Source of the DNA: Vulcanimicrobiota bacterium
Lineage (GTDB): Bacteria > Vulcanimicrobiota > Vulcanimicrobiia > Vulcanimicrobiales > Vulcanimicrobiaceae
Direction of reading: 5' to 3'
Assembly (NCBI GenBank): GCA_003140855.1
Contig: PLLF01000065.1
Span: 1 to 64,000, forward strand
DNA: 64,000 nucleotides
The notes under the pieces are model-generated. The model made no database searches. It saw nothing but the letters and a program-made list of their open reading frames with translations, and was not told the DNA's origin. Shown here in pieces: positions 57,102-59,618 of the stretch; positions within the stretch are counted from its first letter, which is position 1, and every line of letters begins with the position of its first letter. The translations under genes were made by a program, and so were the position numbers.

Positions 57102-57131
57102 AAAAAAGCCCGAATTGCTTCGGGCTTTTTT
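57102..57131. terminator. intrinsic bidirectional terminator
   Basis: AAAAAAGCCCGAA and its exact complement close a TTGC loop. The A/T runs on both sides make it a terminator for both convergent genes. Confidence 0.93.
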
Positions 57132-57148: not shown

Positions 57149-57649
57149 TTAGTGGTAGATGTTTTGGTGCGGTCCGGTCACCATGAAGAAGATCATCGGG
57201 ATGGAAAGCATCGTGTTTACGCGCGATGCCAGGAACGCAACGCGCCGCGCTTTGTTTTTCTCTTCGTCGGTCGCCGGCACGATGCCGAGCAGTTTCTTCT
57301 GGTTCATCCAGATGAACGTCCAAACGTTGATCAGCATGATCGTGCCCAACCACGCGCCGATGCCGATCGGTGCGAGTGCGCCTTGCAGACCAAACGCGTC
57401 TCCGATGCCTTTGAAACCGGCGAAGCTATAGAGCAGCGCCGCGCCGAAAACCCACGTCGCGACCGCGCCCCAGCGGAAGAACAGCAACGCGCGCGGCATG
57501 ATGTATTTGCTGATCGGGCCGGCTTCGCCGGCGGCAGTAGCCTCCTTGGTGGCCGCCGCGTTAACGAAGTTAAAGAAGTAGAGCAAGCCGATCCACATGA
57601 TGCCGGCGAGCACATGCAGCCAGCGCAGGATGATTTCACTCCATTCCAT
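57149..57649 (-). CDS. PuuD-like (urate-oxidase N domain) membrane protein
   Basis: This 166-aa protein has four helices and the first helix reads RWLHVLAGIMWIGLLYFFNF, the His-bearing start of the PuuD membrane domain. The C-terminal cytochrome c part of full PuuD is absent. So it may bind heme or quinone but cannot be a complete urate hydroxylase. It follows a 38-aa membrane protein with no gap (TAG-ATG). Confidence 0.72.
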   Translation of the reverse strand: MEWSEIILRWLHVLAGIMWIGLLYFFNFVNAAATKEATAAGEAGPISKYIMPRALLFFRWGAVATWVFGAALLYSFAGFKGIGDAFGLQGALAPIGIGAWLGTIMLINVWTFIWMNQKKLLGIVPATDEEKNKARRVAFLASRVNTMLSIPMIFFMVTGPHQNIYH

Positions 57650-57766
57650 CTATGCACCAACTCCTGCGGAATGTCTCACGATTGTTTCCGCAACCCAGTA
57701 TAGAATGCCGGTCAGGATCACCCCGCAGATGATCGTGCCCCACAACGAGTCCAACGGATTTTTCAC
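57650..57766 (-). CDS. 38-aa membrane microprotein upstream of the PuuD-like gene
   Basis: GTG 57766 is preceded at 8 nt by a perfect AGGAGG (57775-57780 on the minus strand). The product is one hydrophobic helix (LWGTIICGVILTGILYWV) with a short charged tail. Its stop touches the PuuD-like ATG, so the two are co-translated. Such proteins often act as small subunits (CydX/CcoQ class); this one is not recognisable by sequence. Confidence 0.68.
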   Translation of the reverse strand: MKNPLDSLWGTIICGVILTGILYWVAETIVRHSAGVGA

Positions 57767-58041
57767 TCCAGGTTCCTCCTATTTCGGCGGTGGCGGGGTG
57801 GTGCGGCCCGTTGCTACGGCTGCATTCCCATCGTTTATTTCCCAGATCGCAATGGCGGCTTCGCTGCGAGTCACGCGCTGGCCGCGATGACTGAAACAAG
57901 ACGTCTCATCCGAAGCGTCGGATTCTGCGCTCCCCGGACCCCTCCTCGCCTTAGGGGGCTGACGACCGAGCGCGGAGTACGTAGCCCGTCCAACCGGCCG
58001 AACGCGGTGCTACGGGCACCAGGAGGGGTAAAGGGACGAGT
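57767..58041 (+). other. 275-bp gap with paired segments; candidate structured RNA
   Basis: The segment holds ACCCCTCCT (57938-57946), which pairs perfectly with AGGAGGGGT (58021-58029). Inside are GCCCGT / ACGGGC (57984-57989, 58012-58017) and ACCG / CGGT stems. Upstream is a separate hairpin ATCCGA-AGCG-TCGGAT (57909-57924). No riboswitch core is recognised. The SD for the next gene (AAGGGA) lies just past the closing stem. Confidence 0.4.
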
Positions 58042-59607: not shown

Positions 59608-59618
59608 GCTGGACTTTG

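Follow-up and report, generated by a model that had tools for sequence, protein, structure and literature searches.

A gene for a 38-aa membrane microprotein directly precedes that of a 166-aa membrane protein in the window, by which we mean the whole stretch of 64,000 nucleotides analysed here, and comparative genomics gives good support to reading the two as a two-subunit membrane unit. The pair is probably an undescribed obligate two-subunit membrane protein that is redox-active and linked to superoxide; its chemistry, a haem and the physical contact of the two proteins are what we infer from the comparisons below.

The microprotein gene occupies positions 57650..57766 of the minus strand, starts with GTG, stops with TAG and encodes the product MKNPLDSLWGTIICGVILTGILYWVAETIVRHSAGVGA. 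The gene of the larger protein, a short-form DUF989 / Urate_ox_N membrane protein matching PF06181, starts with ATG and occupies positions 57149..57649 of the same strand, and the TAG of the former and the ATG of the latter are contiguous, with 0 nt between them. As the earlier note had described, the microprotein gene has a strong Shine-Dalgarno sequence, AGGAGG (57775..57780, minus strand), 8 nt 5' of the GTG, and its stop abuts the partner's start; a Shine-Dalgarno-like AGGAG for the DUF989 gene is located within the microprotein ORF (57661..57665, minus strand). The terminator search returned an intrinsic-terminator-like hairpin at 57102..57131 (minus strand), the one found against 1.1 that chance would yield in a region of such size, which is plausible as a terminator because of its position 3' of the DUF989 gene and suggests a stand-alone two-gene transcript for the pair. 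The window genes downstream of the pair encode a type I chorismate mutase and a prephenate dehydrogenase according to the Pfam search, and no functional link to the pair was seen for them or for the divergent upstream gene. Between positions 59618 and 62658 the window also carries a tRNA-Ala gene (minus strand) and then a Fur-family regulator gene, which is followed by apparent metal ABC transporter genes for a binding protein, an ATPase and a permease.

The earlier note had made its proposal depend on conservation of the microprotein beside PuuD homologues, and the pairing turned out to be near-invariant across Eremiobacterota, Nitrospirota and the Beta- and Gammaproteobacteria. The closest named contigs place the window in Candidatus Eremiobacterota. 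Strong relatives of the 166-aa protein were detected in 52 of the 99 genomes of the same GTDB family. Of the 53 Eremiobacterota loci examined, two of them in a single genome, 51 have an intact small ORF; in one of the others the ORF is visible but cut at the contig start, and in the last the contig breaks off within the larger gene. From a named genome collection, the best 80 of 531 confirmed relatives, that is, the most similar ones, were examined, of which 66 are outside Eremiobacterota (Beta-, Gammaproteobacteria, other Proteobacteria and Nitrospirota), and all 66 of these loci have the small ORF just 5' of the larger gene. A profile search detected the microprotein at strong scores in 51 of 149 genomes of the phylum, always together with the larger gene, and none of the 149 genomes has a microprotein without its partner; a lone extra copy (G078) is 35 nt away from the end of its contig. 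The larger gene was found alone in one genome of the 149, where it is cut by the contig.

The microprotein has one predicted transmembrane helix, placed at residues 8-33 in the predicted structure, and a conserved NPLDS motif at its N-terminus; its consensus is MKNPLDSLWGTxxxGxxLTxxLY and its length mostly 25-38 aa. The pN/pS ratio was 0.36 for the Eremiobacterota set and 0.34 for the other set, and out-of-frame ratios for the Eremiobacterota set were 0.92 and 1.73; judged from these alignments, the microprotein is under purifying selection, with a pN/pS of about 0.35. Between members of the same genus the DNA of the small ORF is 80-92% identical, and the 90 nt upstream of it 20-37% in most pairs. 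An SD-like core was present 5' of 110 of 119 homologous small ORFs, which mostly start with GTG or TTG in Eremiobacterota and with ATG elsewhere. On this comparative evidence, the microprotein gene is a real protein gene.

Two other explanations of the small ORF were weighed against these data. If it were a translational-coupling leader without a working product, one would expect the stop-start contact or 4-nt overlap seen at many Eremiobacterota loci, and the position of the partner's Shine-Dalgarno sequence within the small ORF would be accounted for; but the spacing to the partner varies between -4 and more than 100 nt, the codon positions show the pattern of a protein gene, and conservation at the amino-acid level together with a hydrophobic helix extends across phyla, so that we consider a mere leader highly unlikely. 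A small hydrophobic type I toxin of the Fst kind was suggested by weak matches of 10 of 36 members to the NCBIfam Fst model (best E 0.0019). These matches reflect a generic hydrophobic helix, and with the conserved NPLDS end, the fixed linkage to one membrane-protein gene and the strict co-occurrence against it, the toxin explanation retains next to no probability.

No family model in Pfam or NCBIfam covers the microprotein, and its motif was not found in the text of 5.39 million open papers. In the plasmid collection, the nearest microprotein-like ORF outside annotated genes directly precedes the short DUF989 gene of Acidibrevibacterium and is unannotated in the RefSeq plasmid, and in the phage collection no relatives were found. 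For an unannotated small protein the conservation is unusually strict: motif, position and partner are constant across at least three phyla.

The 166-aa protein scored 72.2 bits against Pfam Urate_ox_N PF06181 (cut-off 26.9), as all 36 of its relatives likewise match this family. Doniselli et al. (2015, PMC4562309), in the part of that account available to us, describe a short form of DUF989 that comprises helices I, II, V and VI of PuuD, lacks cytochrome c and occurs in gene contexts unlike those of puuD. Since the 166-aa protein exceeds the PF06181 gathering score and, by profile alignment to PuuD, has helices I, II, V and VI only, it is this already described four-helix form. The account of the short form, as far as it was available, treats the larger protein alone and mentions neither the microprotein nor a superoxide dismutase (SOD) neighbourhood. 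We found no description of the two-gene unit in the open literature.

To compare residues, 36 short forms were aligned with 20 full PuuD proteins. His12, Arg59, Met105, Arg143, Asn145 and Met156 are invariant in 36/36 short forms; Trp66, Met105, Asn145, Pro151 and Met156 are common to short forms and PuuD, whereas the invariant residues Arg59, Arg143, Tyr24 and Trp100 are the short forms' own. The only membrane-domain histidine of PuuD that is kept in all 36 short forms is His24 (His12 in the short form); His252 (His161) is kept in 31 of them, and His66, His72, His90, His178, His188 and His236, invariant in PuuD, are absent or replaced. The CxxCH motif was found in 20/20 full PuuD proteins and in 0/36 short forms. 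The two proteins thus have a homologous membrane core, with the TM1 His and the W, GTIM, N, P and M positions in common; but PuuD has eight helices and the short form four, the III-IV and VII-VIII regions being missing in the alignment, and the cytochrome c, the specific histidines, the loop and the purine context of PuuD are all lacking in the short form.

These comparisons bear on whether the pair is a urate oxidase or hydroxylase whose cytochrome c domain was lost or replaced, as the above-cut-off Urate_ox_N match and the automatic annotation of relatives as urate hydroxylase PuuD would have it. Apart from the loss of the PuuD-specific histidines and of cytochrome c, a complete PuuD with a CxxCH cytochrome c domain is encoded elsewhere in the same genome (G000:C61:12513-13406, locus L061), and the short form is present in many genomes without a full PuuD. 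No full-length PuuD match was obtained in the 18 genomes of one genus (g5), all of which have the short form, and the lone weak match there was the short form itself. The gene neighbourhoods also differ from those of puuD, as they do in the available part of PMC4562309, the short form's neighbours being unrelated to purine degradation. We consider a urate-oxidising pair extremely unlikely, and a urate oxidase function was rejected on residues, cytochrome c, gene context and distribution. Accordingly, where the earlier note saw a PuuD membrane domain without cytochrome c beside a 38-aa protein, the pairing and the lack of CxxCH are borne out, but not a PuuD that has lost its cytochrome: the partner is a short DUF989 protein without most of the PuuD histidines, and its annotation as PuuD is misleading, predicting urate degradation where none is supported. 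The microprotein was also considered as a displaced PuuD helix and rejected, since its profile showed no similarity to that of either full PuuD or the short form (probability below 1%). The full PuuD gene of G000 adjoins a UraD-like (OHCU decarboxylase-like) ORF and guaA, both named by eye from translations, and a long pentapeptide-repeat-like protein with ANLQ/GANL-type repeats is encoded nearby (L061:1641-2861, minus strand).

A role in haem synthesis, with the larger protein as a HemJ-like protoporphyrinogen oxidase and the microprotein as its subunit, was raised by a similar TM1 motif around the conserved His and by a weak similarity to UPF0093/HemJ that 7 of the 36 members show (best E 0.0057). 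HemJ itself is absent from 99/99 family genomes: no match to its Pfam model PF03653 was above the cut-off in them. Yet the short DUF989 is below the cut-off, and its distribution does not fit such a role. Ferrochelatase (12/99) and HemY (14/99 above cut-off) are for the most part found together, and their presence does not depend on that of the short DUF989, which is not distributed in a manner complementary to HemY in the haem-making genomes, and most carriers wholly lack ferrochelatase. The HemJ-like function was rejected by this distribution and is, in our estimate, very unlikely. We also noted that ferrochelatase, HemJ and above-cut-off HemY are missing from G000 and from most of the 99 family genomes, and that a heme-copper oxidase profile was matched in 95 of the 99, too many for it to be informative.

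The link to superoxide comes from the gene neighbourhood. Of the 35 Eremiobacterota genomes with both the unit and an Fe/Mn SOD gene, 22 have the two within about 3.5 kb of each other, where chance would give about 0.09; these genomes belong to 9 of 19 genera. The SOD gene is divergent in most of them, upstream and co-directional in one and downstream in two, and much of this adjacency is probably a single ancestral arrangement. Outside Eremiobacterota, an SOD gene was found within about 1.1 kb at 5 of about 66 loci among the best 80 of 531 relatives (about 0.1 expected): divergent at L097, upstream and co-directional at L105 and L130, and directly downstream and co-directional at L117 and L122. 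Counting L117 and L122, which are sister sequences, as one, these represent at least four independent placements in Proteobacteria/Nitrospirota. Pfam confirmed the neighbouring SODs for five representatives. SOD is the sole neighbour seen to recur in both Eremiobacterota and Proteobacteria/Nitrospirota; it adjoins a minority of the proteobacterial loci, among which argD-argF-argG is commoner.

SOD was undetected in 17 of 52 unit carriers versus 3 of 47 non-carriers (Fisher p = 0.001), and among genomes at least 90% complete in 10 of 30 versus 1 of 27 (p = 0.006), counts which ignore phylogeny and incomplete assemblies and in which the association is confounded by phylogeny. The window's own genome has the unit and neither a detectable Fe/Mn nor a detectable CuZn SOD. 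No CuZn-SOD was found in the SOD-less genomes except for one partial match; the search for Ni-SOD gave 0 matches, as did its controls. We put forward the superoxide-linked role as a new testable hypothesis.

The other neighbourhoods are varied. Downstream of the pair, argD-argF-argG is present at about 40 proteobacterial loci among the best 80 of 531. Genes for an O-methyltransferase, a flavin reductase and a metallo-beta-lactamase-fold hydrolase are near the DUF989 gene at 11 of 20 sampled Eremiobacterota loci (L206, L208-L212, L214-L216, L220 and L221), on the DUF989 strand in 10 of the 11, possibly as one operon. Two alphaproteobacterial plasmids carry a pqqA-pqqD-pqqE-(DUF989)-serC cluster (L169:2325-5570 and L170:2379-5564), with the rest of the PQQ pathway absent from the stretch shown; the cluster may make a different peptide-derived product. 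The pqq-linked counterpart on the Acidibrevibacterium plasmid has a microprotein ORF, and no recognisable one was found for the distant pqqE-linked homologue on the Methylovirgula plasmid; the pairing is therefore possibly not universal in the outermost relatives. In the midpoint-rooted tree, the Eremiobacterota sequences fall into a single clade (support 98/80) among proteobacterial sequences, a topology consistent with a single joint acquisition of both genes or with an ancient shared origin.

Such variety of surroundings combined with strict co-occurrence would also be expected of a two-subunit membrane unit unrelated to superoxide, for example a binder of a small molecule, haem or quinone, or a transporter, in which case the SOD neighbourhood would come from aerobic-stress co-regulation or a shared genome region. 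The recurrence of SOD in Eremiobacterota and in Proteobacteria/Nitrospirota in several orientations and the enrichment of SOD-less genomes among carriers speak against this reading, which we hold to be a possible but less favoured one. To our preferred explanation, namely one two-subunit complex that is not a urate oxidase and that handles superoxide or a related radical by means of a cofactor, we give about an even chance.

The pair was modelled as a single chain, with the TAG codon read through, and the model had a mean pLDDT of 87. The large protein was predicted as four long helices (pLDDT mostly above 90) and the microprotein as one helix (71-83). No solved structure resembling the model was found by sequence or by fold (best fold E 0.78). 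On the superoxide-linked reading, the two genes would be transcribed as one mRNA and translated in a coupled or adjacent manner, and both proteins would join one membrane complex. The microprotein would be the obligatory small subunit, with its glycine-lined helix packed on the four-helix bundle and the invariant NPLDS terminus lying at the membrane surface, and would stabilise the bundle or the cofactor site in the manner of CydX in cytochrome bd. The complex would oxidise or scavenge superoxide or a related oxygen-derived radical at the membrane and pass the electron to a cofactor, which may be a haem b held through His12 or a quinone, the radical chemistry taking place at this cofactor near His12 in a way comparable in principle to that of the cytochrome b561-type superoxide oxidase, which also has four helices.

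If the link to superoxide is right, the pair would add a second type to the minimal membrane superoxide enzymes, and the lack of a recognised superoxide dismutase in some aerobic genomes would be easier to explain. A further step, that such complexes of a short DUF989 with an obligatory 25-38-aa microprotein are new membrane superoxide-oxidising or -protecting systems that replace SOD in some bacteria, including the window's organism, we think rather unlikely. The pair offers a concrete two-gene system for purification.

With regard to known small subunits, the microprotein resembles CydX of cytochrome bd and CcoQ/FixQ of the cbb3 oxidase in its length of about 30-40 aa, its single membrane helix, and a gene that stands beside that of the large subunit and was never found without it in the genomes searched. 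It differs from them in having no family-level sequence similarity and a partner that is not an oxygen reductase: against FixQ/CcoQ PF05545 it gave an E value of 0.15 and 12.5 bits (cut-off 29), and no member matched at E 0.1. A two-subunit unit of the CydX/CcoQ kind, as suggested earlier, is thus a good reading of the strict pairing, but the microprotein cannot be recognised as a homologue of CydX or FixQ/CcoQ.

We know of no microprotein for the superoxide oxidase SOO/CybB, with which the larger protein may be compared in that both are minimal four-helix membrane proteins and a superoxide-linked role is proposed for the short DUF989. SOO/CybB, a cytochrome b561, has four helices, two haems b and an arginine antenna (PMC11869295). 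No sequence similarity between it and the short DUF989 was detected, and the latter has one invariant His among 36 sequences where SOO/CybB carries two haems b. The short DUF989 is thus not a member of the cytochrome b561 SOO family, and because of the single invariant histidine a two-haem arrangement is unsupported; by analogy, it could work similarly to SOO with one haem or a quinone.
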